From: Thermostichus vulcanus str. 'Rupite'
Lineage (GTDB): Bacteria; Cyanobacteriota; Cyanobacteriia; Thermostichales; Thermostichaceae
Reading direction: 5' to 3'
Assembly (NCBI RefSeq): GCF_022848905.1
Contig: NZ_JAFIRA010000025.1
Location: forward strand, 1-50,100
DNA: 50,100 nt
Shown: piece by piece, positions 28,637 through 49,036 of the stretch
How the letters are laid out: each line of letters opens with the position of its first letter
Position numbering within the stretch: the first letter of the stretch is position 1
Translations under genes and position numbers: made by a program
Notes under the pieces: generated by a model
The model's database searches: none
Seen by the model: the letters and a program-made list of their open reading frames with translations, nothing else
What the model was told of the DNA's origin: nothing

Positions 28637-28737
28637 ACCGAAGCGAAAACTGCGGAAGCTGTCTTGTGAACACTGCCATCAATATCCGTAAGAAGGCTTG
28701 CGGCTTCTGGGATTGGAAACCAGCGCCCTACTACTAC

Positions 28738-29748: not shown

Positions 29749-30561
29749 TCACTTGGCCCAGTGGGTTAGCCATCGCTCCAGAGTCGCCACTAACCAAAAC
29801 ACCCCCAGTGCCAGGAGTGTGCTCAGGATCACAACCGCCCATAGGAGCCCTTGATCTCGACGGGAAGCTGCATTAATGATCATGTAGCCCAGCCCTTGGG
29901 TGCCTGTCAGCCACTCCGCCAGCATGGCCCCCAAAATGGCTGCCGGTGCCGCCGCCCGCAAGCCTGTAAACAGATGGGGCAGAGCAAAGGGTACCCGCGC
30001 CCACCAAAAGATTTGCCAGGGATCCGCTCCACACACATGAAATAACTCCTGCACCGTTCGTTGGGTGCTTTTGAACCCTTGCACCGCATTCACCAGCATG
30101 GGAAAAAAGCAGACGATGGTGGCCACCACAATGCTGGTGCCCAGACCGCGGCCCACCAGCAGGGTAATCAGGGGGGCTATGGCCACAACGGGAATGCTGC
30201 GCAAGGTGATGGCAAAGGGCATGATGGTGCGCTCTGCCGCCACTGAACGGGTACACAGCCCCGCTAGCACTAGGGCAAAGGTGGATCCCACTCCCAGACC
30301 TGCCACCATCTCCCAGAGGGTGACCCCCGTATTGCGCCATAACACTTGTTTCTCCCGCAGAAGGGCATTCCAGGTCATCTGAGGAGAAGCCATTAGGTAA
30401 GGCGGGATCCCAAAGGCGAGGATGATCCCCTGCCAGAGGGCGATAAAAAATACTGCACCCAGTACGCTCCAAGCTAAAGACCCAAAGGTGGGTCGGATCC
30501 AGTGTCTCCAAGCAGGTGATCTCACGATTGACCGGAGAGTGGGTTGGACATTTGCTGTCAT
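29749..30561 (-). CDS. ABC transporter permease 2 of the N-heterocycle island (SsuC/ThiX-like)
   Basis: The 270-residue permease has five to six membrane helices, with VVAIAPLITLLVGRG, the EAA-loop LFHVCGADPWQIFWWARVP and ILGAMLAEWLTGTQGLGYMI. I start it at the ATG at 30561, whose ATGA overlaps the stop of permease 1. A longer frame back to 30654 is not needed. Translational coupling to permease 1 suggests a heterodimeric channel. By family the ligand may be a nitrate, sulfonate, thiamine-precursor or pyrimidine-like compound. Confidence 0.9.
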   Translation of the reverse strand: MTANVQPTLRSIVRSPAWRHWIRPTFGSLAWSVLGAVFFIALWQGIILAFGIPPYLMASPQMTWNALLREKQVLWRNTGVTLWEMVAGLGVGSTFALVLAGLCTRSVAAERTIMPFAITLRSIPVVAIAPLITLLVGRGLGTSIVVATIVCFFPMLVNAVQGFKSTQRTVQELFHVCGADPWQIFWWARVPFALPHLFTGLRAAAPAAILGAMLAEWLTGTQGLGYMIINAASRRDQGLLWAVVILSTLLALGVFWLVATLERWLTHWAK

Positions 30562-31370
30562 GCTTGCCTCCTGCCCATGCAAACCTGCTCGGCAAACGAC
30601 ACCACGGCAAAGCTGCCCACTGCCATAGCGGCACTGGTGAGCATGGTCAGCCACACCTGCGGCACATCGAAGGAAAATAGGGCGAAGGTCATCATCATGC
30701 CCAACCCCCGGTCAGCCCCCGTCCACTCTGAGATAATCGCCCCCAGGACCGCACTGGCTGCTGCTGCCTTCAGCCCTGCAAAAAGATAGGGCAGAGCTGC
30801 TGGCCATTGCAGATGGCAAAACATCTGCCAGCGATCGGCAGAGAGCAACTGAAAGAGCTCCTGGGCTTGTTCATCGGTGGCCTTGAAACCCTGAATAGCT
30901 CCCACCATAATCGGGAAAAAAGAGGCAATAGCTGCAATCACCACCCGTACTGAGGAGCCCGTACCCAGCCAGATGACCAACAGTGGGGTAAGGGCGATGA
31001 GGGGCACGCTGTAGACGATCACTGCCAGGTTGTAGAGGAGCCCTTCGGCGGGGGGCACAAACACCGCCAGCATTCCCAACCCCAAGGCCAGTCCACAGGC
31101 GGCGGCATAGCCTACTAACGCGGCCACTCCTGTGGCCTGCGCATGAAACCAGAGCACCTCATGCCATCGTCTCAGAGCCAGAGCCACTTGCCAGGGGGTG
31201 GGCACCGTAATGGGCAACCAACCCCACATCCCCATCGCTTGCCAGAGCAGCAGGGATCCTAGGCCAATCATCAGAGACCAGCGATAAGCTCGGATCCCTT
31301 GCCAGAGCCGTGAGCTGACCCCTTGCAGGAGCTGGTGGAGGAGCAAACAGGAGTTGAGACTGAGGGACAT
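30558..31370 (-). CDS. ABC transporter permease 1 of the N-heterocycle island (SsuC/ThiX-like)
   Basis: The 270-residue permease carries SVPLIALTPLLVIWLGTGSS, the EAA-loop segment LFQLLSADRWQMFCHLQWP and VLGAIISEWTGADRGLGMMM. I chose ATG 31370, preceded by GAGGA about nine bases upstream. This gives the same length as permease 2. A TTG start at 31454 would add 28 residues with no membrane character. It follows the ATPase gene by about 100 bases from this start. The two permeases differ clearly, so they are not a recent duplication. Confidence 0.88.
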   Translation of the reverse strand: MSLSLNSCLLLHQLLQGVSSRLWQGIRAYRWSLMIGLGSLLLWQAMGMWGWLPITVPTPWQVALALRRWHEVLWFHAQATGVAALVGYAAACGLALGLGMLAVFVPPAEGLLYNLAVIVYSVPLIALTPLLVIWLGTGSSVRVVIAAIASFFPIMVGAIQGFKATDEQAQELFQLLSADRWQMFCHLQWPAALPYLFAGLKAAAASAVLGAIISEWTGADRGLGMMMTFALFSFDVPQVWLTMLTSAAMAVGSFAVVSFAEQVCMGRRQA

Positions 31371-31469
31371 AGGGAAATATCCTCGATAACTCTCCAGGTC
31401 GTTTGGAGGACGAGCAACCTTCAGATAGTCTTCACGGATAACTTTCAAATTCAAAGGATTGGGATATCT

Positions 31470-32291
31470 TCATACTTGAGTTGGTAAGGCTCTCGGCTGC
31501 AGACTAGGGGGCTCTTGAGCTATCTCTTGAGTGAATAGGGCATCACGGACACGGTTCTCGGTTTCAAAAAAAACCTGCTCCCGCATCAAACCCAGGTGAC
31601 GAGGACGAGCCAGTGGAACCGGAACTTGCTCGATGATGCGTCCAGGACGCGCTGACATGACAAAGATCTGATCGGCCATCAACACTGCTTCTGCAATGCT
31701 GTGGGTGACCAACAGAGTGGTGATACCCGCCTCCGACCAGATGCGCAACAATTCTAGGTTCATGCGCTGGCGGGTGATCTCATCCAGGGCCCCAAAGGGT
31801 TCATCCAGCAGCAACACCTCCGGCTGCAACACCAAAGCTCGGGCAATGGAAACCCGTTGGCGCATCCCTCCCGACAGTTGGCTGGGCAGAGCCTGCTCAA
31901 ACCCCTCCAGCCCCACCAGCCGGATCAGCTCCTGGGGCGATGCTGCCGAGGGTAAACCAGATTTGCGAGCGATCTGGATGGGCAACCGCACATTGTCTAT
32001 CACGGTTCGCCAGGGCAGCAGGGTGGCCTCCTGAAAGACAAAGCCGATGGCATGTCGCTTGCGGACGCGGCTGGGGGGATCCCCGCCGATGGTTAAGGTG
32101 CCAGCAGTGGGTTGCAGGATATCGGCGATCAAGCGCAGTAGGGTGGATTTGCCGCAGCCGCTGGGGCCGATCAACGCCCCGAACTGCCCTCGCTGCAACT
32201 GTAGATCTACCTGATCCAAAACCGTAATGGACTGAGGTTTAAGACGAAATTGATGGCTGACCTGCCGCGCCTCGAGATGAGGTTCCCTCAT
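31470..32291 (-). CDS. ABC transporter ATP-binding protein (SsuB/TauB/ThiZ-like)
   Basis: The 273-residue ATPase has Walker A GPSGCGKSTLLRLIADILQP, the Q-loop FVFQEATLLPWRTVIDNV, the signature LSGGMRQRVSIARALV, Walker B VLLLDEPFGALDE and the switch His in LLVTHSIAEAVLMAD. It powers the two downstream permeases. Its start overlaps the end of the amidohydrolase gene by four bases (ATGA), so binding protein, amidohydrolase and ATPase are translationally coupled. The close operon form makes the amidohydrolase a likely enzyme for the imported compound. Confidence 0.95.
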   Translation of the reverse strand: MREPHLEARQVSHQFRLKPQSITVLDQVDLQLQRGQFGALIGPSGCGKSTLLRLIADILQPTAGTLTIGGDPPSRVRKRHAIGFVFQEATLLPWRTVIDNVRLPIQIARKSGLPSAASPQELIRLVGLEGFEQALPSQLSGGMRQRVSIARALVLQPEVLLLDEPFGALDEITRQRMNLELLRIWSEAGITTLLVTHSIAEAVLMADQIFVMSARPGRIIEQVPVPLARPRHLGLMREQVFFETENRVRDALFTQEIAQEPPSLQPRALPTQV

Positions 32292-33814
32292 TGGGTCACC
32301 TCCTGAGCCACCGCCGGCCTCTGAGTATGCTGGCCTTGGGCGTAGAAGCGGCGAATCTGGTCTTGAAAGGAACGCACCAAGGGTTGCAGGGCATAAACCT
32401 GAGCTGAGGCAGCTTGGGCTTGGGCGATGAGCTCCGTGCGGATGGCCGCTTCATCCACCCCAACCACCCGGCCCTGTTGCACGACTGGCTGCCCCCCAAT
32501 GATCAAACCGACCACATGCTCAGCTCGGGCTCTCCCCAATACCAGGTCTGTCTCATCACAGATATCTGGCAACACATCTTCCGATAGGGATCCATAGTTC
32601 AAAAAGAGCACATCTGCCGGGGATCCCACCTCCAGAGTTCCTGCCGTGGTCAAGCCTGTGACTGCCCTGGTCCCATGACGCATCGAGGCAGCAAAGATCT
32701 GGGCTGGAGTCACCGCCACATCCAGCCCCACCCCCGCATGGAGGGCATAGGTCAGCCGCAGCTCCCGCAGGGCGTCCTCGTCGTCATCCAGCGACATACC
32801 GTCCATCCCCAGCGCCACCGGGATCCCAGCCTTGAGCATGGGGGCTAGTGGTGCCAGACCGGAGCGTAAGCGCAAATTCGAACTGGTGTTCACCGATACG
32901 ATCACCCCTCGTTCCGCCAAGAGGTGCCACTCATCGGGCCGCAGCCAAACTCCATGGGCCACCGTCAACCTTGGGGAGAGCAATCCAATCTTGTCCAGAT
33001 AGCAGAGCAACCCCTGGGGATAGGTGGCATCTGCCCACTCTCGTTGGTAGCGGGTCTCAAACAGGTGCATATGTACCCGACGATTTTGGGCGGCTGAAGC
33101 GGCAGCTACCGCCTCGAGCAAGGGCTCCGAACACCATTGGGGGCCAATTGGGCCAAATTGCACCGACACCCGTTCGCTCTCGCAGCGAGCAGCAATAGCA
33201 GGCACCAAGGCCACTTGTTCTGCCACAGGCAACGGAGGTTGATCCCAAATATTGCGAATGGCCTGTTGCTGCTGGGCACTCAGGCCTGCCAATACCTGCC
33301 CATCCCCACCATAGGCCAGACGATTGCGGTCGCTCAGGGGTACTACAAAGGCCATCCGTAGGCCAACCTCCTGGGCAGCTCGACAAGCCGAGTTAGCCTC
33401 TTGCATCAGGGACTCGGGATCCGAACCTTGGGGATTGTGGCAGTGCACCACCGAGCCAACGCCACTGCGGGCCAGCTTAGCTAAGGCGTAGGCAGTCAGC
33501 AGATAGGGATCCACCTGAGGTTGGGCTCGTAATGCTGGGATCCAAAGCTCTAAAGCCTGATCCACTGCCCCAAAAGCTAGCGTAGGCAACCCCCGCCCAT
33601 GATCGTGGGCATTGGCTAAGGGAGGCATAGCCAGCAGCGACGTGGCCGACCCAGCGAGAGGATTAGATACAGCTGGAGAATCATCAAGGGCCGAATCCAA
33701 GGCTGTAATCTGGCCATGCCACCAGCTCAATCGCAGCGAATGACGGGCGGGCTGCACCCCAGGGTGGGTTAAAACCCGCTCCACAGCGATACTACTGACA
33801 ACTGACTCACTCAT
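32288..33814 (-). CDS. Amidohydrolase, cytosine deaminase / AtzB-like, embedded in a transporter operon
   Basis: The 508-residue amidohydrolase-fold enzyme has metal ligands in PPLANAHDHGRG (H-x-H), HMHLFETRYQREW, RLTVAHGVWL and VALGMDGMSLDDDEDALREL (catalytic Asp). This is the single-metal pattern of deaminases and N-dealkylating or dechlorinating hydrolases such as cytosine deaminase, AtzB and TrzN. C-terminal to the barrel is an extra helical tail of about 60 residues, rich in Gln and Ala. It lies between the binding protein and ATPase genes, each with a four-base ATGA overlap. I infer hydrolytic removal of an amine or side group from the imported ring compound. The substrate is not known. 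Confidence 0.85.
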   Translation of the reverse strand: MSESVVSSIAVERVLTHPGVQPARHSLRLSWWHGQITALDSALDDSPAVSNPLAGSATSLLAMPPLANAHDHGRGLPTLAFGAVDQALELWIPALRAQPQVDPYLLTAYALAKLARSGVGSVVHCHNPQGSDPESLMQEANSACRAAQEVGLRMAFVVPLSDRNRLAYGGDGQVLAGLSAQQQQAIRNIWDQPPLPVAEQVALVPAIAARCESERVSVQFGPIGPQWCSEPLLEAVAAASAAQNRRVHMHLFETRYQREWADATYPQGLLCYLDKIGLLSPRLTVAHGVWLRPDEWHLLAERGVIVSVNTSSNLRLRSGLAPLAPMLKAGIPVALGMDGMSLDDDEDALRELRLTYALHAGVGLDVAVTPAQIFAASMRHGTRAVTGLTTAGTLEVGSPADVLFLNYGSLSEDVLPDICDETDLVLGRARAEHVVGLIIGGQPVVQQGRVVGVDEAAIRTELIAQAQAASAQVYALQPLVRSFQDQIRRFYAQGQHTQRPAVAQEVTQ

Positions 33815-34848
33815 GAGATGCGGGTGGCTCCTTGATAGGCGGCCTCCAAAATCGCTGCCGTCATCACATCCGACGGCTCGAGAGCACTCTCGATGGCCGC
33901 AAAGTCGTTGGCTAGCAGGTCAATGCTCTGGGCGAACACCTCCTCGCTGATCCAGCACAGGCCCCGTTCTTCCGCCAACCCACCGGCGATCAGCTCCACT
34001 TGAGCCTTGGCTTCAGCAATTTGAGCCTCTAGATCCAGCCCCCGCTGCCCATAGGTATCTACCATCAACCGAGCTGTCTCCTCGGGGTTCTCCACGGCAA
34101 ACTGCCAACCTTTGATATCCGCCCGTAACCAACGCACCAACAGATCCGACTGGGTTTCTAGCACCTTGTCGGTGGTGAAGAAGGCGTTGCCATACTCCAC
34201 AAGGCCAAGATCATAGGTGTAGGCGATCTCAATCTCGACCCCCCGTTCCTGCAGAATGATGCCCTGGTTGGTGGCATAGCCGAAGTAGCCATCCACCTGC
34301 CCGGTGGCCAAGATAGCCGGATCTGTCCCCACCGGCACGAAAGTGACATCTGACTCCGACAGACCGTTTTTCTGCAACAGGGCAATGATCGGGGGACGCG
34401 AAAAATCCGGAATGGCAATGGTCTTGCCTGCCATTTCAGGCACAGAGAGAATGGGGGACTTCTTCAGACTCATCAGGGCAAATGGGGTTTTTTGAAAAAT
34501 GCAGGCAAACGCCTTAATGGGGGTGCCCTGGGCCCGGGCAATGATGATGTCGTTGCTGCCGGCATCCCCCAGCATCACCTGACCACTGGCCACCAGACTG
34601 ATGGGATCAATATTGGGGCCGCCGGTTTTGAAATCGGCTTCGATGCCTTCCTCGGCAAAATAGCCGTTTTCGATGGCGGCAAAGTGCCCCCCAAACTGGA
34701 CGCTCTTGACCCAGCCCAACTGAAAATCTACCGACTCGAAACTCTGGGCCTGGGCGGTTCGGGACAGGAGCCGAGAAGCTGACGACAGTGACAACACAGC
34801 GCCCCCTGCAAACATGCCCCCTTGAAGAAACTGCCGACGCTTGAACAT
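33811..34848 (-). CDS. ABC transporter substrate-binding protein, NMT1/THI5-like, Tat-exported
   Basis: The 345-residue protein starts MFKRRQFLQGGMFAGG, a twin-arginine signal (RRQFL) followed by a hydrophobic stretch and AQAQS cleavage region, so it should be exported folded. The mature part is an NMT1/THI5-like periplasmic binding protein: FQLGWVKSVQFGGHFAAIEN, ADFKTGGPNIDPISLVASGQ and GDAGSNDIIIARAQG. The family binds nitrate, sulfonates, taurine or pyrimidines such as thiamine precursors. It is the first gene of the leftward operon and overlaps the amidohydrolase by ATGA. An NtcA-type box lies 56 bases upstream. A TTG start at 34863 would add five residues. Confidence 0.9.
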   Translation of the reverse strand: MFKRRQFLQGGMFAGGAVLSLSSASRLLSRTAQAQSFESVDFQLGWVKSVQFGGHFAAIENGYFAEEGIEADFKTGGPNIDPISLVASGQVMLGDAGSNDIIIARAQGTPIKAFACIFQKTPFALMSLKKSPILSVPEMAGKTIAIPDFSRPPIIALLQKNGLSESDVTFVPVGTDPAILATGQVDGYFGYATNQGIILQERGVEIEIAYTYDLGLVEYGNAFFTTDKVLETQSDLLVRWLRADIKGWQFAVENPEETARLMVDTYGQRGLDLEAQIAEAKAQVELIAGGLAEERGLCWISEEVFAQSIDLLANDFAAIESALEPSDVMTAAILEAAYQGATRIS

Positions 34849-34903
34849 AGGTTTCAGGATCAACGGTTGAGTATGACTCTCCCAAGAAGATTAAGAACCT
34901 TTC

Positions 34904-34917
34904 GTATCTGCGGTTAC
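34904..34917. promoter_or_regulatory. NtcA-type box in the divergent binding-protein / NicX-like promoter region
   Basis: The bases read GTA-TCTGCGGT-TAC, the full GTA-N8-TAC consensus for the nitrogen regulator NtcA. Rightward, TAATAT (34942-34947) fits TAN3T at a 24-base spacing, within the accepted range. The box also faces the leftward transporter operon, though the -10 on that side is weak (CATACT, about 28 bases off). Confidence 0.6.
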
Positions 34918-34987
34918 CCTTTAGCCAGAAAGTGGCCCAAATAATATATGAAATAATATCAGGCCTCTGAATGTGGCCAGGAGCACC

Positions 34988-36034
34988 ATGAAGCTGTCGC
35001 TGATGACCGAATCGCGGTCGGAGTACTACGCTTTTGAGCTAGCGGCTGCGGCCCGTCGCCTTGCTGAAGAAGTGCTGGAGATTCAACCCGGCCAAGAGGT
35101 CTTAATCACTGCCGATACCCTCAGTGATGCTCGCGTAGTGCAGGCTACAGCTCAGGCTTGTTTTGCCGCTGGTGGGATCCCAGTGGTTATGACCTATCCC
35201 ACCGCCGCCAAGCCCCAATCGGAGCCTCCTGCTTCCGTAGCAGCGGCCCTAGCCTCTGCCGATATTTGGATCGAATACAGTCACGCCTACATTATGTACA
35301 CCCACGCTTGGCAGCGGGCAGTGGCTGCGGGAGTGCAATACTGCGCCTTTGGGGATATGGATGTGGACGGCCTTGTGCGCTGTTTTGGGCGGGTGAAGGT
35401 GCCGCTTCTAGAGACCTTTGGGGACTGCTTAATCGATCTACTCACCAACAGCCGTGACTTTCACCTCACCACAGAATTGGGCACAGACCTCCATTTCAGC
35501 AACGAGGGAGTTCCCATCGGTGCGTTTAGGATGAAGGCCAACCCCAAGCACATTCCCATCATGTTGGCTGGGCAGGTGTCGTGGTCGCCAGTGGCACAAA
35601 CCATGCAGGGTCGTTTTGTGGCGGACGGCATCCTCTATCCTCCTGAGGAGGTGGGCATCTTAACTGATAGGGTTATTCTCACGGTAGAGGCGGGTACTAT
35701 CACTCAGATCGAGGGAGGACGGGAAGCGCAGCTTCTCCAGAAGTGGATCGATAAACTGGCAGATCCCACCCTCTATAAAATTGCCCATACCTCCTACGGT
35801 TTCAACCCTGGTATCATGCAACCTACGGGCCGTATCACTGAAGACGAGAGAGCTTTTGGCTGTTTTAACTGTGGTTGGGGCGCTTGGGTCGATCGTCCCG
35901 CAGCGGGGCATTTTGATGTTACTGCCCTGCAGGTGAGCAGTTGGGTGGACGGGATCCCGTTGGCCAAGAATGGCCTTTTCGTCCATCCTGACCTGGCTGC
36001 CCTCTGCCGTGAGATGGGAGTGCCAGGACACTAA
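34988..36034 (+). CDS. M29 aminopeptidase / 2,5-dihydroxypyridine dioxygenase (NicX)-like protein
   Basis: The 348-residue protein resembles the family that joins M29 leucyl aminopeptidases and NicX, the iron enzyme opening 2,5-dihydroxypyridine. The last third has YKIAHTSYGFNPG, ITEDERAFGCFNCGWG and AGHFDVTALQVSS. The His of the first and the His-x-Asp of the last fit the iron ligands I recall for NicX. An ordinary M29 peptidase should show more metal-binding Glu and His, so I favour a NicX-like ring-cleaving or related role, without certainty. I chose ATG 34988 with AGGAG six bases before it; a GTG at 34973 is the alternative. It is the first gene of the rightward unit. Confidence 0.75.
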   Translation: MKLSLMTESRSEYYAFELAAAARRLAEEVLEIQPGQEVLITADTLSDARVVQATAQACFAAGGIPVVMTYPTAAKPQSEPPASVAAALASADIWIEYSHAYIMYTHAWQRAVAAGVQYCAFGDMDVDGLVRCFGRVKVPLLETFGDCLIDLLTNSRDFHLTTELGTDLHFSNEGVPIGAFRMKANPKHIPIMLAGQVSWSPVAQTMQGRFVADGILYPPEEVGILTDRVILTVEAGTITQIEGGREAQLLQKWIDKLADPTLYKIAHTSYGFNPGIMQPTGRITEDERAFGCFNCGWGAWVDRPAAGHFDVTALQVSSWVDGIPLAKNGLFVHPDLAALCREMGVPGH

Positions 36035-36124
36035 AAGGTGGTTTAGAAGGTGGTTTCGGTAGGTGGTACTGAGACGATAAGTACAAAGGATTCAGATGAT
36101 CTCCAGCCAATATCTGGGAGTGCC

Positions 36125-36895
36125 ATGTCAATGTCGGTAGATCCTGAGTGCTTTTCCCACAAAGTAGTTCTGGTCACGGGTGCTAGTTCTGGCATTGGTC
36201 AAGCTGTGGCCCTGCGCTTAGCCGCTCGTGGAGTCAAGGTGGGGGTGGCCGGGCGCTCAACCCAAGGGATCCAGCAGACCCTTCACCGATTGCAGGATGC
36301 CGGGGGACATGGGATCCCGTTGCCGATGGATGTGGGGATCCCGGAGCAGGTGGAAGGTGCTGTCGCTCAGCTAGAAGATACCTTTGGGGGTCTCGACTGG
36401 ATCGTCTGTGCGGCAGGCATCAGCCCCATGGGTAGCGTTTTGGAAACATCCTTTGATCTGTGGCAGGAGACGCTGCGGGTGGATTTGACGGGGGTGTTTC
36501 TTACCTGCAAAGCGGGGATCCCAGCGCTAATCAGGCGAGGGGGCGGGGCCATCGTCACCATTGCTGGCACTCTCGGCCTTTACGCCATGCCCCAGAAGGC
36601 CGCCTACTGTGCAGCTAAGGCGGGAGTGGTCAACCTCACCCGTCAAATGGCAATCGACTATGGCAAACAGGGGATTCGGATCAACTGCATTTGCCCTGGC
36701 TTCATTGAGACCCCGATCAACGCAGATTTAGACCCAGTCGTGAAGGAGCACTTCTTGGGCAAGTTGCCCCTACCTCGGGCTGGCTCAGCTGATGATGTCG
36801 CCTCAACAGTCCTTTTTTTGCTCAGTGAGGCCTCGACCTACACCACCGGAGCTGTGTTGTCGGTGGACGGGGGCCAGGGCTTGGGGCTGTTGTGA
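36125..36895 (+). CDS. Short-chain dehydrogenase/reductase with Gly at the catalytic Ser position
   Basis: The 256-residue SDR has the nucleotide motif VLVTGASSGIGQAVAL, CAAGISPMGS in place of NNAG, the Tyr-x3-Lys pair at Y161 and K165 (AAYCAAKAGVV) and CPGFIETPIN. The classical catalytic Ser should lie 13 residues before the Tyr. That position is G148 in TIAGTLGLY, with T149 next to it. Activity may be changed, or T149 may take over. The ATG at 36125, with GGGAG upstream, is chosen over a frame start at 36050 because the extension reads as noise. It follows the NicX-like gene by 90 bases and should oxidise or reduce a pathway intermediate with NAD(P). Confidence 0.85.
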   Translation: MSMSVDPECFSHKVVLVTGASSGIGQAVALRLAARGVKVGVAGRSTQGIQQTLHRLQDAGGHGIPLPMDVGIPEQVEGAVAQLEDTFGGLDWIVCAAGISPMGSVLETSFDLWQETLRVDLTGVFLTCKAGIPALIRRGGGAIVTIAGTLGLYAMPQKAAYCAAKAGVVNLTRQMAIDYGKQGIRINCICPGFIETPINADLDPVVKEHFLGKLPLPRAGSADDVASTVLFLLSEASTYTTGAVLSVDGGQGLGLL

Positions 36896-36923
36896 GTTGT
36901 AGATCCTGCAAGATCCCGTATCG

Positions 36924-36965
36924 GTAGCTGCCAATACAGTCCTACTCAAGGAGGTTGTTTATGGT
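36924..36965 (+). promoter_or_regulatory. NtcA-activated promoter of the 2OG oxygenase gene
   Basis: GTA-GCTGCCAA-TAC (36924-36937) is a perfect GTA-N8-TAC box. Exactly 22 bases later comes TATGGT (36960-36965), matching TAN3T. This is the canonical class II NtcA promoter arrangement. Transcription would begin near 36972, some 65 bases before the chosen start codon at 37037. Confidence 0.7.
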
Positions 36966-37036
36966 CAAGGCAATAAATCGTATATGTTATGCGATTTTGT
37001 GGTTTGTGTAACTTGTCTGAGGCGGTAGGAGGTGGC

Positions 37037-38098
37037 ATGGTTGCCGTTCAAGATCCCCATTCACGGCCTCAACCTCGCCAGGGGTGGGGTGGGCGCGACC
37101 CTGACGCAACGTTACAAGCTCCAGAGATTCCAGTCATTGATATTGGAGCGTTGGGATTTACGGATGAGCCGGACTCGGGACAGGCCGTTGCCCAGGCTAT
37201 CGGTCGAGCCTGCCAGGAGATTGGTTTTTTCTATGTGGTCAATCACGGGGTTCCTCAAGATTTGCGGGAGCAGGTATTTGTCGAAGCCAAGCGGTTTTTT
37301 GCTCTCCCCCTGGAAGAGAAGCTGAAGATTCCCGCCACCCGCGATCATTACCGGGGTTATCTGGCTCTACAAAGTAAAGGCTATGCCAATGGCAAAGGGG
37401 ACTTTTTTGAGGGCTTCAAGATGCAACTGGATCTGGGGCCTGAGGATCCCGATGTGAGGGCGGGCAAACCTTTGCATGCCCCCAACAAGTGGCCCGAGAA
37501 CCTGCCAGGATTTCGTGAAACCCTATTGACTTACCAAGCTGCCATGCACGAGCTGGCTGATCGTATTGCCCAGGGGTTTGCCTTGGCGTTAGGGGTAGAC
37601 CGCTATTTCTTTCGACCCTTTTTTCAAAAACCCCTCACTCAGCTCAGTCTGATGCACTACCCGCCCCAGCCCCCGGAAACGTTGGGAGACTACTTTGGGG
37701 TGCATCCCCATTCCGATACAGGTGCCTTCACCATTCTGATGCAGGACGAAACCGGTGGCCTCGAGGTGGGGCATCGCTCGGGGGAATGGGTCAGTGCTCC
37801 CCCCATTCCAGACACCTATTTGATCAACATTGGGGATATGATGGCCCGCTGGACAAACGACCGGTTTACTTCAACCCCTCATCGCGTCATTAACCGAGCC
37901 AACCAAAATCGCATCTCGGTACCCTTTTTCGTCAATCCTGACTACGACGCTGTGGTGGAGTGTATTCCCACCTGCCAGTCGGCAACGGTTCCCGCTCGCT
38001 ACCCCGCCACCCATGTGGGGGACTACATCTTGGGGGTTTACACCTCAGGCTGGCAAGGAGAGGAGGGCTTTCAAAAGGAATCCACCAGCTTGGTCTAA
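37037..38098 (+). CDS. 2-oxoglutarate/Fe(II)-dependent oxygenase (isopenicillin N synthase-like)
   Basis: The 353-residue enzyme has the DIOX_N region (EIPVIDIGALG, then EIGFFYVVNHGVP). The catalytic domain has iron ligands HPHSDTGAFTIL (H-x-D) and TSTPHRVINR (His), and the 2-oxoglutarate Arg-x-Ser in NRISVPFFVNP. The fold includes thymine-7-hydroxylase, flavonoid and gibberellin oxygenases and the ethylene-forming enzyme, so hydroxylation of a heterocycle is plausible but not shown. I chose the ATG at 37037 because AGGAGGT precedes it; 36989 lacks a ribosome site and adds a Cys-rich stretch. It is preceded by the textbook NtcA promoter and converges with the OPRT gene. Confidence 0.88.
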   Translation: MVAVQDPHSRPQPRQGWGGRDPDATLQAPEIPVIDIGALGFTDEPDSGQAVAQAIGRACQEIGFFYVVNHGVPQDLREQVFVEAKRFFALPLEEKLKIPATRDHYRGYLALQSKGYANGKGDFFEGFKMQLDLGPEDPDVRAGKPLHAPNKWPENLPGFRETLLTYQAAMHELADRIAQGFALALGVDRYFFRPFFQKPLTQLSLMHYPPQPPETLGDYFGVHPHSDTGAFTILMQDETGGLEVGHRSGEWVSAPPIPDTYLINIGDMMARWTNDRFTSTPHRVINRANQNRISVPFFVNPDYDAVVECIPTCQSATVPARYPATHVGDYILGVYTSGWQGEEGFQKESTSLV

Positions 38099-38179
38099 GC
38101 CCCTGATCTTCACGGATGGGGTTCCCGTGATCAGTTCACTTTCAAGCGATCTTGAAACAACACTGTACACCTTCTATAT

Positions 38180-38755
38180 CTACCCACTCAACGGGATCCC
38201 TTGTTGACAGAGGGGACAATCCTGAGGATCCACGGCATCCATGCCCTGAAGCTCAAGGAGCACCTCTGTGGGGCATCCTAGGTCGATGGCAAAGATCCCC
38301 TTGGTGGCGACTAACCCCACTCCCACAGGGATCCCATTAGCTTGCCGCACAATCTCTACCAATTGCTTGGCAGTTCCCCCTGTTGTGGTAATGTCATCGA
38401 CTACTAGAACTCGAGCGCCAGGGACTAGTTCAAATCCCTCGATCAGCCGGTAACGCTGCTCGTCTTGGCTTTGGCGGGCAATAGCGACTTCAGCCCCTAA
38501 CCGTCTGGCGAGCTCAAAGGCCAAAATACTGCCTGCTTCATTGGCTCCCATCACCACATCAGGGCTTTGAGCCTGGAACCGACAAGCCAGCTCTACAAAA
38601 AGGGCCTCACAGGCGTTGGGATCCTGAAACAGCTTGATGCAGCGAAAAAAGCGGCTAGCATGAAGGCCGCTGGCCAGCTTGAAGTGCCCCTTTTGCAGGG
38701 CCCCCGAACGCTCTACCCACGCCAATAACGCTGCTGTGTCAGACAAGACAGACAA
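38180..38755 (-). CDS. Orotate phosphoribosyltransferase or close relative
   Basis: The 191-residue type I phosphoribosyltransferase has the PRPP loop RVLVVDDITTTGGTAKQLV and the FKLASGLHASRFFRCIKLF segment typical of orotate enzymes. GANEAGSILAFELARRLGAE is the pyrophosphate loop, and there is a C-terminal CPLCQQGIPL motif as in many PyrE proteins. It would join a pyrimidine base to PRPP. It ends the leftward unit, five bases after the GlcG-like gene, which follows the ring-opening amidohydrolase. Either it is the cell's PyrE placed here, or a second copy adapted to a related ring; whether pyrE occurs elsewhere would settle that. Confidence 0.88.
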   Translation of the reverse strand: MSVLSDTAALLAWVERSGALQKGHFKLASGLHASRFFRCIKLFQDPNACEALFVELACRFQAQSPDVVMGANEAGSILAFELARRLGAEVAIARQSQDEQRYRLIEGFELVPGARVLVVDDITTTGGTAKQLVEIVRQANGIPVGVGLVATKGIFAIDLGCPTEVLLELQGMDAVDPQDCPLCQQGIPLSG

Positions 38756-38760
38756 GATCT

Positions 38761-39189
38761 CTAGTTCTCCTGATGTTTAAGCGCCTGCATCAAAGCATCA
38801 ATCCCAGCCTGCCCTACCTCGACATCTTGATCGCCAGTGCCGGATCCCACCCCGACGGCGCCAATCACCTGCCCCTGAACCACAATGGGCAACCCACCCT
38901 TCAAGTTGGTTAGTTGTCCACCAGTTACCAAGCCCAGCTTCAGCTCCAGATCAGCAGGCACCAACCCCGTTGCCCCCCGTGATGAGGCTGCTGTTACCGC
39001 CTTTTGGGTTGAGGATAGCTGGCTCAGTACCTTGGCCCCATCCATACGCGCATAGGCTAGTAGATTGCCCGCCGGATCCACCACGGCAATACATTGGGGT
39101 ACCCCCATGGCTTTGGCTTTGGCGATGGCCCCGTTGAGTACTACTAGGGCCCCCTCACAGGTCAGCTCCGTCTTTTGGCAAAGATACAT
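38761..39189 (-). CDS. GlcG/HbpS family protein
   Basis: The 142-residue protein is a single GlcG/HbpS domain: LNGAIAKAKAMGVPQCIAVV, DPAGNLLAYARMDGAKVLS, TGGQLTNLKGGLPIVVQGQV and IGAVGVGSGTGDQDVEVGQAG. The family appears in many catabolic clusters and binds small ligands or haem; its biochemical part is mostly unknown. It lies between the ring-opening amidohydrolase and OPRT genes in one tight operon, so I infer an accessory role in the same pathway. Confidence 0.88.
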   Translation of the reverse strand: MYLCQKTELTCEGALVVLNGAIAKAKAMGVPQCIAVVDPAGNLLAYARMDGAKVLSQLSSTQKAVTAASSRGATGLVPADLELKLGLVTGGQLTNLKGGLPIVVQGQVIGAVGVGSGTGDQDVEVGQAGIDALMQALKHQEN

Positions 39190-39243
39190 CTCCCCCTCAC
39201 CCCAAATGTTTCATCGTTCACTTTCTTTGCATCTCGATTGTCT

Positions 39244-40368
39244 TCAGTGCACCCGTGCGATAGCCGCCACCAGATTACTCCCTGGTGGGCCCTGATGTTC
39301 AAATCCTGCTGAGGCGAGAATCATGGGATCCCCTACAACGGAGGCCACCACCGCATTGGCCACTGCTTTAGCCATGATGCCCGCATAGCCTGCTAAAAAG
39401 TCGCTGTGGATGGTGTGCCGTCGGCCCCGCACTGACGTGACTGCATCGGCCCCACAATTGACGAACACCTGAGCAATGCGCTTCTGCTCCTCTGGTGTCA
39501 GCGGAAAGGTCTCTAGCCCAGCTCCTTTCAGAGCAGTGTGGATCCCGGACGTATCGAGCTGATCTTGCATGACCCCATGTCCGATGCGATAGGGACTAAT
39601 GGAGTGAGACGAATTGCCGATCACAAGGACTCGACAAGCCGACTGCTCCCCGCCTGCCGATACTGAACCTCGGGTGGTGTAGAGGTTAAAATCGCGGTTG
39701 ATGGCGGCATCACTGATGCGCTCGGCGGGGATTTCTCCCAAGGCCACCCCCACCCCCAAGGCACAGGCGGCCTTGGAAAAGGAGGAGGCTTGCCCAAGGT
39801 TAGTGCTGACCAAAGATTGTCCCCGCGCTTGAGCATCTGCCATCCGGGCGGGTGTCATGGCCGGACATTTGACTTCCACACAATGCACATCCTCCAAATC
39901 TGAAATACCCGCCTTCTGGATGGCCTCCTGTACGGCCATCGCGACTTTTTCCACCTGAGTGGTGCGGCCATAGTCCTCGGGCAACAGTTTGGGAGTATTG
40001 GCCACCCCAATGGCTAGCCTCTTCCCAGAAGGGGGATCCTGAGGAGGTAAGACAGTCCGCCTAGTAAAGATAGTGTAGTGGGGACTCATCAGACCGCCAC
40101 AAAGACCGATCATCATCAACGGGATCCGCTCAAACACCTCTTCTGTAGAGATCCCTAGAGACTGTGCCAACACCAGCTGCATACACAGAGCGGCGTAACC
40201 CCGGGCATAGCCTGTGCCTTCCGTCTGGGCAATGATAGCTTGGATCTCCTCGGCTTTGAGTTGGCCTTCCTGAAGCAGTGCTTGGAGACCTGTTACATCA
40301 TCAGGCGAGGACATCGGCAGGCGAAACACCTCGACATCGATCCAATCTGGCTCTCCGATCGGCACCAT
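39244..40368 (-). CDS. Ring-opening amidohydrolase, cyanuric acid hydrolase / barbiturase family
   Basis: The 374-residue protein belongs to the small AtzD/barbiturase family, which opens cyanuric acid or barbiturate. From memory of AtzD, the fold is three repeats, each with a Lys-Ser pair. Counted from ATG 40368, the second repeat keeps K167 (VEVKCPAMT) and S237 (SVSAGGEQ). The third keeps S353 (ASAGFEHQGP), with RGRRHTIHSD before it. The first is altered: K becomes Q48 (AQTEGTG), and the SGGTEG motif reads IGLCGGLMSPH. This suggests a distinct branch. I prefer ATG 40368 (GGAAAG before it) because it gives the family's length; the frame is open to 40518. It heads the GlcG-OPRT unit. Confidence 0.82.
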   Translation of the reverse strand: MVPIGEPDWIDVEVFRLPMSSPDDVTGLQALLQEGQLKAEEIQAIIAQTEGTGYARGYAALCMQLVLAQSLGISTEEVFERIPLMMIGLCGGLMSPHYTIFTRRTVLPPQDPPSGKRLAIGVANTPKLLPEDYGRTTQVEKVAMAVQEAIQKAGISDLEDVHCVEVKCPAMTPARMADAQARGQSLVSTNLGQASSFSKAACALGVGVALGEIPAERISDAAINRDFNLYTTRGSVSAGGEQSACRVLVIGNSSHSISPYRIGHGVMQDQLDTSGIHTALKGAGLETFPLTPEEQKRIAQVFVNCGADAVTSVRGRRHTIHSDFLAGYAGIMAKAVANAVVASVVGDPMILASAGFEHQGPPGSNLVAAIARVH

Positions 40369-40696
40369 AAGCTTTCCACTCCGTTCAGGATGGGGATCTT
40401 CGACTTTATAGAATATATGATTTTTTGAGAATTTTTTGAGACCTGCTGCGAGTTCCCGACAATAGCCTTTGGGGGAAAGCCCCCCTTGACTGCTCACTAA
40501 GCCAAGGCCCGCAATCATTAGATGGGAGGACGATTATTCCACCCTTCTGGGAATTGGAGCCAGAGGATGGGACTCTTCGGCTTTCGCAAAATAGAAGTCA
40601 GCAAAAAAATTCAATCTTTGGCAAATCTTTGAGAAGTCGGAAGCATTTTTGCCGGGTGAGTTGTCTAGAATGCACTCATCTTCATTAAAGTAAGCA
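40369..40696. other. 328-base control region between the ring-opening and cas units
   Basis: It contains 50 in-frame codons upstream of the chosen ring-opening start (with a possible start at 40518 that lacks a ribosome site) and AT-rich sequence at 40595-40650. Its right edge holds a GTA-N8-TAC box that overlaps the WYL start codon. No RNA gene or separate ORF is seen. Confidence 0.5.
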
Positions 40697-40703
40697 ATGC
40701 TAC
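40690..40703. promoter_or_regulatory. NtcA-type box at the WYL gene start, facing the ring-opening operon
   Basis: The bases read GTA-AGCAATGC-TAC, a full GTA-N8-TAC match that covers the ATG of the WYL gene. Leftward, exactly 22 bases away, lies TAGACA, which has the TA but not the final T of TAN3T. It may activate the ring-opening unit, repress the cas operon, or be chance. It is weaker than the other two boxes. Confidence 0.4.
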
Positions 40704-41671
40704 GCCAGTTAGAACGAGTTTTGAAACTGGATATGCTTCTCCGCTCTGGGCAAAAGCAGACGGCCACTATGCTGGCTCAGGCTTTGGAGGTCAGCGAACG
40801 GACGGTGCGGGCGGATATTGATTTCTTGAAAGACCGCTTTCAAGCGCCGATTCAAACGAACCGGAAAGTAGGGTATCACTACACGGATCCGGACTGGCGG
40901 TTGCCGTCAATTCGGCTGACACAAGGGGAGCTGTTTGCCCTGACGCTGGGAGCCAGGATGCTGGAAGCCTATGCCGGTTCGGCCTATCGTTCTCAGCTTC
41001 AGTCGGCCATTGACCAGTTGGCGGAGCGGATCCCGGAGCAAGCTTGGGTGGATCTGCAACAGTTGGCCCAGGAGCGCATCCTGTTTCGGGTGGGAGCCGA
41101 GTTGGATCTGGATCCTCACATCTGGCAGGTGTTGGAGCAGGCGTGTCAGCAGCAGCGGCGGGTGTGGATACGCTATGCCACTCCGGGTAAGCCCATCTCT
41201 GAGCGGGAGCTGGATCCCTATGTGTTGCATTTCTCGCGCAGTAATCCCTATGTGACGGGCTGGTGTCACTTGAGGGGAGAGCCCCGCTGGTTTCGGATCG
41301 ACCGGATCCGGGAGATCAAGCTGTTGGAGGAGCGATTTGAGGTGAATCCCAACTTTGACCGGGAGGCGCATTTGGAGTCGGCCTTTCAACATGAGGTGGG
41401 CGGGATCCCTCAGGAGGTGGTGATTGAGTTTAATCCGGCTACGGCTCCCTACATTCGGGAGCGGCGCTGGCATCCTACTCAACAGATTGAGGAACATCCC
41501 GATGGATCCCTGAGGTTACACCTGGTGGTGCGGGGGCTCAATGAGGTGAAGCGGTGGGTGTTGTTTTATGGCAAGGGGGCGAGGGTGCTGGGGCCACCGC
41601 AATTAGTAGCGATGGTGCGGGATGAGGTTGAAGGAATGCAGGCTCAGTATCAGCGGGAGGAAGGGCAATGA
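40697..41671 (+). CDS. WYL-domain transcriptional regulator heading the cas operon
   Basis: The 324-residue protein has a DeoR-like winged helix at residues 1-60 (RSGQKQTATMLAQALEVSER, then TVRADIDFL). A WYL domain covers about residues 130-220 (RRVWIRYATPG, SRSNPYVTGWCHLRGEPRWF, then RIDRIREIKLLEE) and a C-terminal extension follows. WYL domains sense nucleic acids or other ligands, and WYL proteins often control CRISPR-Cas systems. Its stop overlaps the cas3 start (ATGA), so it is made with the Cas proteins. That supports a role as the operon's own regulator. It starts 328 bases from the divergent ring-opening gene. Confidence 0.9.
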   Translation: MLRQLERVLKLDMLLRSGQKQTATMLAQALEVSERTVRADIDFLKDRFQAPIQTNRKVGYHYTDPDWRLPSIRLTQGELFALTLGARMLEAYAGSAYRSQLQSAIDQLAERIPEQAWVDLQQLAQERILFRVGAELDLDPHIWQVLEQACQQQRRVWIRYATPGKPISERELDPYVLHFSRSNPYVTGWCHLRGEPRWFRIDRIREIKLLEERFEVNPNFDREAHLESAFQHEVGGIPQEVVIEFNPATAPYIRERRWHPTQQIEEHPDGSLRLHLVVRGLNEVKRWVLFYGKGARVLGPPQLVAMVRDEVEGMQAQYQREEGQ

Positions 41672-44391
41672 ACCAGCCAAGATTTTGGGCGAAGACGGGC
41701 AAGGCAGAGTTTGAAAACGGTCAGCCCAAGTACCATCCGGTGATTTGTCACTTAGCGGATACCGCAGCAGTGGCAATGGAGATTGTGCGATCGCACCTCA
41801 GCCCCATTGCCCGCCAGCATCTTGCCGAAGGCTTAGGATTACCTGATGGCGAGTCTCTAGTGCGCTTCTGCGGGTTCATGGCGGGGAGCCATGACCTAGG
41901 CAAGGTCAGTCCTGCCTTTCAGTTTCAGGTCAGTGATGTGGGAAAAGCCTTGGTGGGGGCAGGTCTGTATGACGGATGGGCTTCCTTGCCCTCGGAACGT
42001 CGCAGATCCCAAAATGCCCCTCACGGATTGGTGACTGCGGCCACATTGCCCGATTTTCTGGTGACCCTTGGAGTTGGTCGAGAGTTGTCTAAGCGTCAAG
42101 CCAAGCGATTGGCACGGAAACTGGGCACTATCGTTGGTGGGCACCATGGGTTCTTCCCTGCTCAGCCAGAGATTGATGAGCTGGATAGCGCGATCGCAGG
42201 TACCGATGAGCGTAGCGTCTGGCGACAGCACAGCCTCAGAATCTTTCAGCAACTTCAGTCCTTTGTGCAACTCACTGCTGAGGATTTACCCAGTCAGTGT
42301 GACAACGCCGCCGCCATGATTTTGGCAGGGTTAACGACGGTATCTGACTGGATAGCCTCCAATTCTGATAGTTTTCCCTACGCCAACGATGAACCGTTTG
42401 AGACTTATCAGACAGGGCTGGCTGACAAAGCAAAGCACGCTCTCAAGACCCAGGGCTGGCAACGCCCCACCACCGGGCATCCGCTCCCCTTCTCCAAACT
42501 TTTTGATTTCATTACCAAGCTTCGGCCTCTGCAATCTGCGGCAGTACAGCTCACTGAGAGCCTAATACCTCCCTGTCTGGTAATGGTGGAAGCCTCGATG
42601 GGGGAGGGCAAAACCGAAGCGGCGCTCTACCTGGCGGATCATCTACAACACCAAACGGGTGCGGGGGGCTTCTATATCGGCTTACCGACTCAAGCAACTA
42701 GCAACGCCATGTTTGAGCGAGTCAGAGCGTTTCTGCAAAAACGTTATGCCGATGAGGTGGTGAATCTCACCCTCAGCCACGGAGCCGCTGCTCTGAAAGG
42801 GGACTATCAAGAAACCGTCTGTCGACTGGATCAGGTTTACGACGAGGAGGGGCGAGGGGTTTTTGCCAGTGAATGGCATACGGCTCGCAAGCGCACGCTG
42901 TTGAGTCCCTATGGGGTGGGGACATTGGATCAAGGTTTGATGGGGGTGGTGCGATCGCGCCATCAATTTGTCCGGCTCTTTGGCTTAGCAGGGCGCACGA
43001 TCATCCTGGATGAGATTCACGCCTACGACTTGTACACCAGCACGCTCCTAGAGCGGTTTCTAGAATGGGCCGCGGTGCTAGGTTCTCCGGTGATTGCCCT
43101 CTCGGCCACGTTGCCCGCCAGTACCCGCCAGCGCTTATTGACCGCCTACGCGACTGGGTGTAACCAACCCGTTCCGCCTTTACCAGAGGCTCCCTACCCT
43201 CGCATGACGGCCTTTGCCAATGGGACAGCCGTAGCCCGATCCTTTTCTGCCTCGGATCATGTGTGTCGGCAGTTGGGCATTCACTGGATTCAAGATGATA
43301 ACTGGCCTGTAGCTCTCTCTCAGGTGCTCAAGGACTCCGGCGGCTGTGTAGCCGTCATTTGCTCTACGGTGAACCGCGCCCAGGCAGTGTACCAACGGTT
43401 GCAAGCGTTCTTTTCCTCGGAAGAACTTGGACTCTTCCATGGTCGCTTTCTATTCAAAGACCGGGAGAGGATTGAGGCCGATTGTTTGCGGCTATTTGGC
43501 AAAGGGGATGAGCATCGGCCCCAACGCTTTGTGCTGGTGGCTACCCAGGTCATCGAGCAAAGCCTGGATGTGGACTTTGATCTAATGATTAGCGATTTGG
43601 CTCCCATTGATCTGTTGCTTCAACGCTCTGGGCGGCTGCATCGCCACGTTCGGGATAAGCGGCCTCCAGGGTTGGAGTCTCCTCATTTGTGGATTGTGGA
43701 TCCCTCTTTCAATGACCAGGGCAAGGCTGACTTTCAAGAGAGTGGCTGTATCTACGACCGTCATATTTTGCTCAGAAGCTGGCTTACTCTGCGGCAGCGT
43801 CCCCAGGTGCAACTGCCTGAAGAGATGGATGCGTTGATCGAGTCGGTGTATGACCTGGATATGCCTATCCCTGAAGATTTAGAGCCGGTTCATGCCGAGG
43901 ATTGGGCAAACTCCCTGGAGAAGTACAAGACCGAAGAGGCTGAAGCAAAACAAGCCCAAGCCAATCGGGTGAAGATCCCACCGCCCCATGGAGATATCCA
44001 GCCAGACCAGTTCACCTATCTGAAAAAGGAGGACGACGAAAGCGCAATTGCCGCCGCTACCCGGCTGGGGGATCCCTCTGTGGCTACCATCTTTTTGCAG
44101 CGCACTGCGGCTGGATTGGTGTTTCCAGGATCCCAAGAACAGGTCAACCTTAATGCCCGTCCCGATCTGGCTTTGATCCGCAAACTGCTGGCCCACAGCA
44201 CTCGCATCTCCAAACGAGAGGTCGTCCAAAGCTTGTCGGCCCAAGAGAACCCGAACAATTGGACATCGGCATTGCTACGGAATTGCCGTTGTGTGGAGGT
44301 TGATGACCAGGGCATGGCAAGGGTGGGGGATTGGCGGCTGACGCTGGATCCCTTGTTGGGGGTTGTGATCGAGAAAGACGTGAACGATTGA
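41668..44391 (+). CDS. cas3: CRISPR-associated helicase-nuclease Cas3 (type I-E)
   Basis: The 907-residue protein degrades DNA marked by Cascade. The HD nuclease domain is at residues 1-220: CHLADTA (His28), MAGSHDLGKVSPAFQFQ (H75-D76) and GGHHGFFP. The helicase follows, with Walker A EASMGEGKTEAALYLAD near 312, DEIHAYD near 447, SATLPAST, and motif VI QRSGRLHRH. The C-terminal accessory domain starts about residue 740. The HD and helicase motifs are intact. Three classical HIP1 sites (GCGATCGC) lie in this gene. It is followed by cas8e after 16 bases. Confidence 0.96.
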   Translation: MNQPRFWAKTGKAEFENGQPKYHPVICHLADTAAVAMEIVRSHLSPIARQHLAEGLGLPDGESLVRFCGFMAGSHDLGKVSPAFQFQVSDVGKALVGAGLYDGWASLPSERRRSQNAPHGLVTAATLPDFLVTLGVGRELSKRQAKRLARKLGTIVGGHHGFFPAQPEIDELDSAIAGTDERSVWRQHSLRIFQQLQSFVQLTAEDLPSQCDNAAAMILAGLTTVSDWIASNSDSFPYANDEPFETYQTGLADKAKHALKTQGWQRPTTGHPLPFSKLFDFITKLRPLQSAAVQLTESLIPPCLVMVEASMGEGKTEAALYLADHLQHQTGAGGFYIGLPTQATSNAMFERVRAFLQKRYADEVVNLTLSHGAAALKGDYQETVCRLDQVYDEEGRGVFASEWHTARKRTLLSPYGVGTLDQGLMGVVRSRHQFVRLFGLAGRTIILDEIHAYDLYTSTLLERFLEWAAVLGSPVIALSATLPASTRQRLLTAYATGCNQPVPPLPEAPYPRMTAFANGTAVARSFSASDHVCRQLGIHWIQDDNWPVALSQVLKDSGGCVAVICSTVNRAQAVYQRLQAFFSSEELGLFHGRFLFKDRERIEADCLRLFGKGDEHRPQRFVLVATQVIEQSLDVDFDLMISDLAPIDLLLQRSGRLHRHVRDKRPPGLESPHLWIVDPSFNDQGKADFQESGCIYDRHILLRSWLTLRQRPQVQLPEEMDALIESVYDLDMPIPEDLEPVHAEDWANSLEKYKTEEAEAKQAQANRVKIPPPHGDIQPDQFTYLKKEDDESAIAAATRLGDPSVATIFLQRTAAGLVFPGSQEQVNLNARPDLALIRKLLAHSTRISKREVVQSLSAQENPNNWTSALLRNCRCVEVDDQGMARVGDWRLTLDPLLGVVIEKDVND

Positions 44392-46050
44392 AGGAGACGA
44401 TTGACAGATGTCATTTAATTTGCTGAACCAGCCCTGGATCCCAGTGATTACCCAGGACTTCCAAATCCAGGAGGTATCCCTGACTCAGCTCTTCCAAACC
44501 TGGGAAACCCTGCGGGAGCTCCAGGCGGATAATCCACCGACTACATTGGCTCTCTACCGCTTTCTACTGGCAATTCTCCATCGGGCCTATCAAGGGCCAC
44601 GCAATGCTGACCACTGGGAAGAAATCTTTGAGGACAACGGACAGAAAGCGATCACATATCTGGGACTCCAACGGGATCGCTTCGACTTGCTCCATCCTGA
44701 GCACCCTTTTATGCAGGATCCCGACTTGCCTCTGGAGAAAGCAGTTCCTATCTATGCCATCCATACCATGAGCACTTCTGAGGTGTTCTCCCATGAACAC
44801 GAGTGGAGTGGCTACAGCCTTTCGCTGGCCCAAGCGGCTCGTTTACTAGTGCGACTCCAAGGCGTGGATATCACTAGCCTGAGAGCGTTCTATGTTGGGC
44901 AAACCAGCGGCAATCGTTCAGCCGTCAATACTCCCACTATCAATGTTGCCAATGTGCTGGTGCGGGGCAGCACTTTGAAGCAGACCCTTCTGCTGAACTT
45001 GATGTGCTATGACCCAGCTTCTGAGGTGCCCAGTGTGGTTTCAGGAGAGGATTTACCTGCCTGGGAAACAAGCTATGGTGGCAAACCGAAGAAGACAATA
45101 CCAGAAGGCTATATCAGCTACCTCACCTTTCCCTGGCGGCGGTTGCGACTCTTTCCAGAGGGTGATCAGGTGAGCCAGTTGGCAATTACGATGGGTCACT
45201 CCCTGCCGGATAAAGTATCTCCCCAACAGTGGGAATGTGGAGTCGCCTACCGGGACGATAAGCCCGTGCGCCTGTCCCTGAGTAAACAGCTTTGGCGCGA
45301 TGCTGATAGCTTTCTGTTGACGGCAGAAAAGCAACATCGGCCCCGCATTGTCGATTGGCTGGCTGACCTGAAATCTGAAGACCTAGTTGATGATGTCGTA
45401 ACTTTCCAAGTCTCTGGCCTCAGCGCTGATAAGGCTAAGCCCCTGGGCTGGAGTTGGGAGCATTTTTCGGCCCCGATTCAGTATGTGACTGATGGGGACT
45501 TGGCTCAAACATTGAAGATTGCGATCACAATCGCCGAAGACCACCAACAAATCTTCCGCTCCTCTCGAGGTAGCCCCTACTTTGCCCTGGCAGAGGCTCT
45601 CAAGAACGGGGATCCTGGTAGTCTTGCCAATGCCTTGGATGGGGAATCCCGCTACTGGGCCAGGTTAGATCGTGCTTTTCCTGAGCTGCTTAACGCCCTG
45701 CCCCAGGATAAGCAGACGGGAGCTGATGGCATCATCCGTTATGGGTTTAAGGAACTTCCCGCCTGGACTCAAACCGTCCAAACCGCCGCTCGGGGAGCCT
45801 TTACCGAGTCGATTGAGTCCATTCGCAACTACAAGGCTAGAGCCGTTGCTCTCCGCACCCTGGAGTGGAAACTTGCAGATTTGCGAGCCAGCCCAGAGGA
45901 GAAGGAGGCCAAAAAAGCAAAAGCTGCCGCCAAGAAAAACACCAAGAAAAAACAAGCCGTTGCCCAATAGGAGCTTGGTTCATGACCACAACCCAGACCC
46001 CACCTCGACTAGAGCGAGAAACAAAATTCCTACAGGCGATTCGCGATCGC
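41787..46050. repeat. Four classical HIP1 palindromes (GCGATCGC) confined to the cas operon
   Basis: They start at 41787, 42190, 42951 (all cas3) and 46043 (cse2). I found no others in the window, whereas GGGATCCC is the common octamer elsewhere and is also present here. The clustering suggests that this stretch evolved in a genome that uses the standard HIP1. Confidence 0.75.
44408..45970 (+). CDS. casA: Cascade large subunit Cas8e (Cse1/CasA)
   Basis: The 520-residue protein begins MSFNLLNQPWIPVI, the standard Cse1 opening. It continues with ALYRFLLAILHRAYQG, RFDLLHPEHPFMQDPDL and LQGVDITSLRAFYVGQTSG, all Cse1-like. The C-terminal four-helix bundle ends in a very Lys-rich tail (KKAKAAAKKNTKKKQ), unusual in degree. 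Cse1 recognises the PAM, contacts Cse2 and recruits Cas3. It lies between cas3 and cse2, with small gaps. Confidence 0.95.
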   Translation: MSFNLLNQPWIPVITQDFQIQEVSLTQLFQTWETLRELQADNPPTTLALYRFLLAILHRAYQGPRNADHWEEIFEDNGQKAITYLGLQRDRFDLLHPEHPFMQDPDLPLEKAVPIYAIHTMSTSEVFSHEHEWSGYSLSLAQAARLLVRLQGVDITSLRAFYVGQTSGNRSAVNTPTINVANVLVRGSTLKQTLLLNLMCYDPASEVPSVVSGEDLPAWETSYGGKPKKTIPEGYISYLTFPWRRLRLFPEGDQVSQLAITMGHSLPDKVSPQQWECGVAYRDDKPVRLSLSKQLWRDADSFLLTAEKQHRPRIVDWLADLKSEDLVDDVVTFQVSGLSADKAKPLGWSWEHFSAPIQYVTDGDLAQTLKIAITIAEDHQQIFRSSRGSPYFALAEALKNGDPGSLANALDGESRYWARLDRAFPELLNALPQDKQTGADGIIRYGFKELPAWTQTVQTAARGAFTESIESIRNYKARAVALRTLEWKLADLRASPEEKEAKKAKAAAKKNTKKKQAVAQ

Positions 46051-46518
46051 ATCAAAAATGATACTGGTGCCAGAGCAACCTTCAAACGGGCACTCTCCGG
46101 TGAACACCACCATCTTCGTAAAGTTTATCCCTTTACACTGCCCTATTTGGCAGGCATCCACGAGTGGCAACAGGATATTTGGATCTTTGTGGCGTGTTTA
46201 TCTACCTACCACGCTCAAGAAAAAGAGCCTACCCCCCGCAGTTTTGCCCAAAGTTGCTTGGATTTACACAACAGCAGTGCATCCAAGGGAGTAGAGCGAC
46301 GATTTCGATCCCTGCTGGATACAGATTTGGTCGATATTCAATCGCCAATCACAGCGTTGGTACGGTTGATCAAAAGTAAAAAGGACAAGAAAATCCCCGT
46401 CTACTATCCCCAACTCATTGCCGATCTCTGTTTCTGGGATCATCCCGATCAATTTATCCAAGACCAGTGGGCTAAGACATTTTGGGGGGCAACACCGCTT
46501 AACGAGGTTAAACCATGA
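45982..46518 (+). CDS. casB: Cascade small subunit Cse2 (CasB)
   Basis: The 178-residue all-helical protein runs from ATG 45982 (MTTTQTPPRLERETKFLQAI), 11 bases after the cas8e stop. Family-like segments are RIKNDTGARATFKRALSGEH, GVERRFRSLLDTDLVDI and LIADLCFWDHPDQFIQDQWA, followed by KTFWG. A longer frame starting at 45865 lies within cas8e and is not needed. Cse2 dimers hold the non-target strand in Cascade. A 103-base gap with no clear gene follows. Confidence 0.93.
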   Translation: MTTTQTPPRLERETKFLQAIRDRIKNDTGARATFKRALSGEHHHLRKVYPFTLPYLAGIHEWQQDIWIFVACLSTYHAQEKEPTPRSFAQSCLDLHNSSASKGVERRFRSLLDTDLVDIQSPITALVRLIKSKKDKKIPVYYPQLIADLCFWDHPDQFIQDQWAKTFWGATPLNEVKP

Positions 46519-46621
46519 AACTGTTGAGATTTACCAGCCATGCCTGAAAGGATATGAACAGGGCAAGAGCAATGAAGATGAGTCTGGCTTTATTCACCTA
46601 ACCCAATTTGAGGAAATTACC

Positions 46622-47755: not shown

Positions 47756-47756
47756 A

Positions 47757-49003: not shown

Positions 49004-49036
49004 AGAACTCGGCCAACCTTAGTCTGGAGATTGACC

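Follow-up and report, generated by a model that had tools for sequence, protein, structure and literature searches.

Positions 36924-36965 of the DNA analyzed here from Thermostichus vulcanus str. 'Rupite' (a stretch of 50,100 nucleotides, referred to as the window) probably form a moderately strong NtcA-activated class II promoter. The candidate promoter lies within a run of genes for an M29 aminopeptidase-like protein, a short-chain dehydrogenase (SDR) and a 2OG-Fe(II) oxygenase, which is part of a likely nitrogen-ring scavenging cluster. A GTAN8TAC motif, a TAN3T box at the class II spacing of the clade (22-23 bases) and a gene for NtcA are all present.

The candidate site and its setting

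It had been predicted from the DNA that GTA-N8-TAC is followed after exactly 22 bases by TATGGT, that the motif lies in an intergenic gap, and that it points to a 2OG oxygenase gene with an AGGAGGT ribosome site. These points were confirmed: GTAGCTGCCAATAC-N22-TATGGT occupies the gap between the SDR stop codon and the oxygenase gene, AGGAGGT is found at 37027-37033 ahead of the likely start codon, and the gene product contains DIOX_N and 2OG-FeII_Oxy domains (Table 1). Among solved chains, the best match of the oxygenase was the ethylene/succinate-forming enzyme 9ovh, and thymine dioxygenase was also matched. The original prediction further invoked the fact that 2-oxoglutarate is both the effector of NtcA and the co-substrate of this oxygenase. 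This coincidence carries no weight as evidence, because the co-substrate is common to every 2OG oxygenase.

Table 1. Features of the candidate promoter and of the surrounding gene cluster (window coordinates)
Feature	Position	Strand	Basis or remark
ABC transporter genes, TRZ/ATZ-type amidohydrolase, NMT1-type binding protein	29749..34863	-	Pfam
NtcA-like site GTATCTGCGGTTAC with TAATAT 24 bases on	34904..34947	+	Divergent gap at cluster head
M29 aminopeptidase-like protein, first gene of run	34973..36034	+	Weak PF02073 match, 22.2 bits (below cut-off of 27)
SDR, upstream gene of same run	36050..36895	+	Pfam
NtcA-like site GTAGCTGCCAATAC (GTA-N8-TAC)	36924..36937	+	Sequence inspection, shuffle test
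AAGGAGGT Shine-Dalgarno and mini-ORF MVKAINRICYAILWFV	36948..37011	+	Sequence; overlaps putative -10 box
-10 like box TATGGT (TAN3T)	36960..36965	+	22 bases 3' of GTAGCTGCCAATAC site
2OG-Fe(II) oxygenase (DIOX_N, 2OG-FeII_Oxy)	37037..38098	+	Pfam; likely start ATG 37037
Phosphoribosyltransferase, HbpS-like protein, ring-opening amidohydrolase	38180..40518	-	Pfam, relatives

NtcA and its promoters in the clade

One clear NtcA was identified in the genome (TIGR03697, 392.7 bits against a cut-off of 244.95), which is close over its whole length to the solved NtcA chains 8h3v, 3la2 and 2xgx. Its recognition helix is almost identical to those of solved NtcA chains, and the matching stretch includes SHQAIAEAIGSTRVT. 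In seven of eight family genomes, the ntcA promoter pairs an exact GTAN8TAC and a TAN3T box 23 bases further on, and the layout was present at all seven nirA loci found. For glnA, the spacer was 22 at three exact and three one-mismatch loci and 21 at one locus; the glnA promoter of the genome itself has one mismatch and a spacer of 22. The -10 boxes TAGGAT, TACTTT, TAAGGT and TAGGGT occurred in the clade at 22-23 bases. The layout was seen at none of the 16 amt loci examined, and it therefore does not mark every nitrogen gene.

The nirA promoters of two sister genomes, G001 and G005 (L259, L260), have a core, GTAACTGCCAATAC, that is one base from that of the window site, which argues against a chance motif in the window. 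They also share a TAN3T box with it, and the distances to the gene start are of the same order. They differ in the spacer (23 in nirA, 22 in the window) and in the right flank, which is A-rich in nirA (CAAAGT) but not at the window site; in addition, the nirA site is conserved across 7 loci, whereas no counterpart was found for the window site. The glnA promoter of the clade resembles the window in its spacer of exactly 22 and its TAN3T box (TAGGAT), although its core, GTATCAGAAACTAC, is set in T/A-rich flanks and the flanks in the window are not A-rich. In Anabaena sp. PCC 7120, the canonical NtcA promoters described in PMC3898017 have GTAN8TAC and TAN3T in common with the window. The preferences for C5, A10 and A11 stated there agree with the window site, which has G4 instead of the preferred T4 and carries A or T at four of the six named flank positions.

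When the flanks were scored separately, those of the 36924 candidate reached -10.4 bits with an oriented matrix (19 sites) and -3.4 bits with a symmetric matrix. Both values were below those of all left-out true sites, which scored at least 1.5 bits (oriented) and at least -1.9 bits (symmetric). An AAA tract directly follows 18 of the 19 training sites and is absent at the candidate; flanks rich in A/T support an assignment to this promoter class and do not define it. With a matrix trained without nirA, the whole candidate site scored 8.3 bits, and this value was reached by 4 of the 54 GTAN8TAC sites within genes and by 11 of the 31 between genes; the latter proportion counts in favor of a chance motif.

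Enrichment over chance

GTAN8TAC occurred eight times in the window compared to a shuffle mean of 2.06, and none of 100 shuffles contained eight or more. When spacers of 20-24 bases were allowed, the complete layout had 47 matches in the 3.72 Mb genome. A pattern read backward was more frequent genome-wide (97 matches versus 47 forward), in the direction against enrichment; this control was set aside because it tested CAT/ATG triplets and its composition was unmatched. Matched controls retained the GTA and TAC triplets with other N lengths between them. At spacers of 22-23 in the whole genome, N8 was found 23 times, compared to 7 for N6, 7 for N7, 16 for N9 and 6 for N10, and the fairly common N9 control is a point against the promoter reading.

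The window and 40 further stretches of this genome (800 kb) together contained 62 oriented intergenic GTAN8TAC sites (31 places), compared to 14-40 for each of the remaining N lengths between N3 and N14 in the same set. With the window excluded (800 kb), 4 N8 sites combined an intergenic position, a -10 box at 22-23 bases and a downstream gene at a distance of 20-250 bases, and the eleven other N lengths yielded a single case between them; all of these are small counts based on genes called by a simple codon-usage script rather than on annotation. Such rarity of the layout ahead of genes for other N lengths argues against a chance origin. On balance, given its layout and position, the site is more probably real than accidental.

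The earlier description of a full class II architecture stands in so far as NtcA is encoded, the ntcA, glnA and nirA promoters of the clade share the layout, and the layout is enriched before genes. The word textbook was too strong, given the non-consensus flanks, a mini-ORF overlapping the -10 box and a rival promoter upstream at 34904-34947.

A second site at the cluster head and the possibility of read-through

The main rival explanation is read-through past a silent motif: transcription of the oxygenase gene would begin at the promoter upstream of M29 (34904-34947), and the 36924 motif would be a chance or residual one, at most a weak and silent NtcA site. We consider this rather unlikely. 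In its favor, the M29, SDR and oxygenase genes all point the same way and are separated by 15 and about 141 bases, and the 34904 site outscores the 36924 candidate and is followed by a near-consensus TAATAT. However, the spacer of 24 at this site is longer than the 21-23 of known promoters. A sigma-70 promoter scan of the + strand from 34700 to 38300 found none.

The 34904 site is identical in 13 of 14 positions to a site elsewhere in the genome (L233:13563), which is flanked by a formamidase gene and an ABC gene. Further high-scoring intergenic sites adjoin two amidohydrolase genes, one of them accompanied by a gene for a PnrA-like binding protein. These sites fit an NtcA regulon in which scavenging of organic nitrogen is prominent, and they count in favor of the promoter reading at 36924. 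A third intergenic GTAN8TAC of the cluster, at 40690, was rejected as it overlaps the start codon of the WYL gene; five relatives were aligned there, and among the four compared (all but L174), L173 retains the site and L175, L176 and L178 lack it. Elsewhere in the genome, a broken 2OG-oxygenase fragment, L160 (G000:C64:6892-6934, minus strand), has GTAN8TAC-N23-TAN3T just ahead of it. This match likely arose by chance, because it is probably inside the region of the gene's own missing front part.

A Shine-Dalgarno sequence in the spacer and an overlapping mini-ORF

The 22-base spacer of the candidate promoter contains AAGGAGGT (36948-36955), a perfect Shine-Dalgarno sequence five bases ahead of an ATG at 36961 that falls within TATGGT. 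It is better spaced to this ATG than the AGGAGGT of the oxygenase is to its own start. The resulting mini-ORF (36961-37011, 16 codons) was absent from the earlier description. These features could indicate that AAGGAGGT and the ATG begin a 16-codon leader peptide on a longer transcript and that TATGGT is not a -10 box; consistent with this idea, the start codon at 36961 could not be on a transcript beginning at 36972. We regard a translated leader as very unlikely, however. The 850 kb set contained 5 occurrences of AAGGAGG-N4-8-ATG, of which only one was in frame with a called gene, so strong sites of this kind seldom mark genes here, and GGAGG or AGGAG was found near one of the first four starts in only 126 of 741 called genes (about 7% expected). 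RNA structure at the leader was not outstanding (z -0.93), and an RNA structure element in the 36924 region was rejected on this value.

Finally, a 20-bp imperfect palindrome, GTATCGGTAGCTGCCAATAC (36918-36937), with matches in 8 of 10 arm pairs and no second copy in the window, is hardly credible as an operator bound by a different regulator, for example the GntR protein (28738-29442), and was rejected, since it has no copy at the other promoters of the cluster and is expected by chance, 24 equally good palindromes being present in the window.

Gene content and distribution of the cluster

The ring-opening amidohydrolase is of the cyanuric acid amidohydrolase/barbiturase family. Judged by its genes, the cluster likely functions in nitrogen-ring scavenging, nitrogen-rich ring compounds being its putative substrates. 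A Rieske ring-hydroxylating oxygenase and an FCD-type GntR regulator are encoded near the transporter genes (27524-29442), and the latter is a possible local regulator of the cluster. The window also contains a complete-looking type I-E CRISPR-Cas operon (Cas3e, Cas8e, Cas11e, Cas7e, Cas5e, Cas6e and Cas1e) behind a WYL regulator (40697-49966) and an IS630-type transposase split over two frames (968-1839).

The cluster was not found in the genus and family relatives searched, and phylogenetic footprinting of the 36924 site failed as these relatives offered no syntenic, orthologous locus. The oxygenase has relatives elsewhere, mostly in Alphaproteobacteria, the best of which are about 50% identical; synteny of the cluster was not found around its best relatives. 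Among 388 genomes of the class, the M29 gene was detected in one, the genome studied here. G006 has AtzD and PRT-HbpS genes, and no exact GTAN8TAC was found near them. A relative of the M29 protein on a Variovorax plasmid (27.6% identity) was considered, and the same cluster was not shown there. A literature search judged mostly on titles and abstract openings found nothing on this locus.

Proposed mechanism and implications

If positions 36924-36965 indeed act as an NtcA-activated class II promoter, nitrogen shortage would lead to a rise in 2-oxoglutarate, and NtcA would bind GTAGCTGCCAATAC about 41.5 bases ahead of a predicted transcript start near 36972. Bound NtcA would then increase transcription of the oxygenase gene, and this would add to read-through from the 34904-34947 promoter. 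Tentatively, and at less than even likelihood, we further suggest that a cluster for the breakdown of nitrogen rings (of the cyanuric acid, barbiturate or pyrimidine type) was laterally gained and wired to NtcA via two sites, one at its head and one inside, such that ring nitrogen might be scavenged when cells are starved; the other cyanobacteria sampled lack the M29 gene of this cluster.

The NtcA class II promoter device itself is already known. If the proposed reading is true, scavenging of organic ring nitrogen would join the functions under NtcA control in a cyanobacterial lineage, and the locus would provide an example of a gained catabolic cluster tied to the nitrogen sensor of its host.
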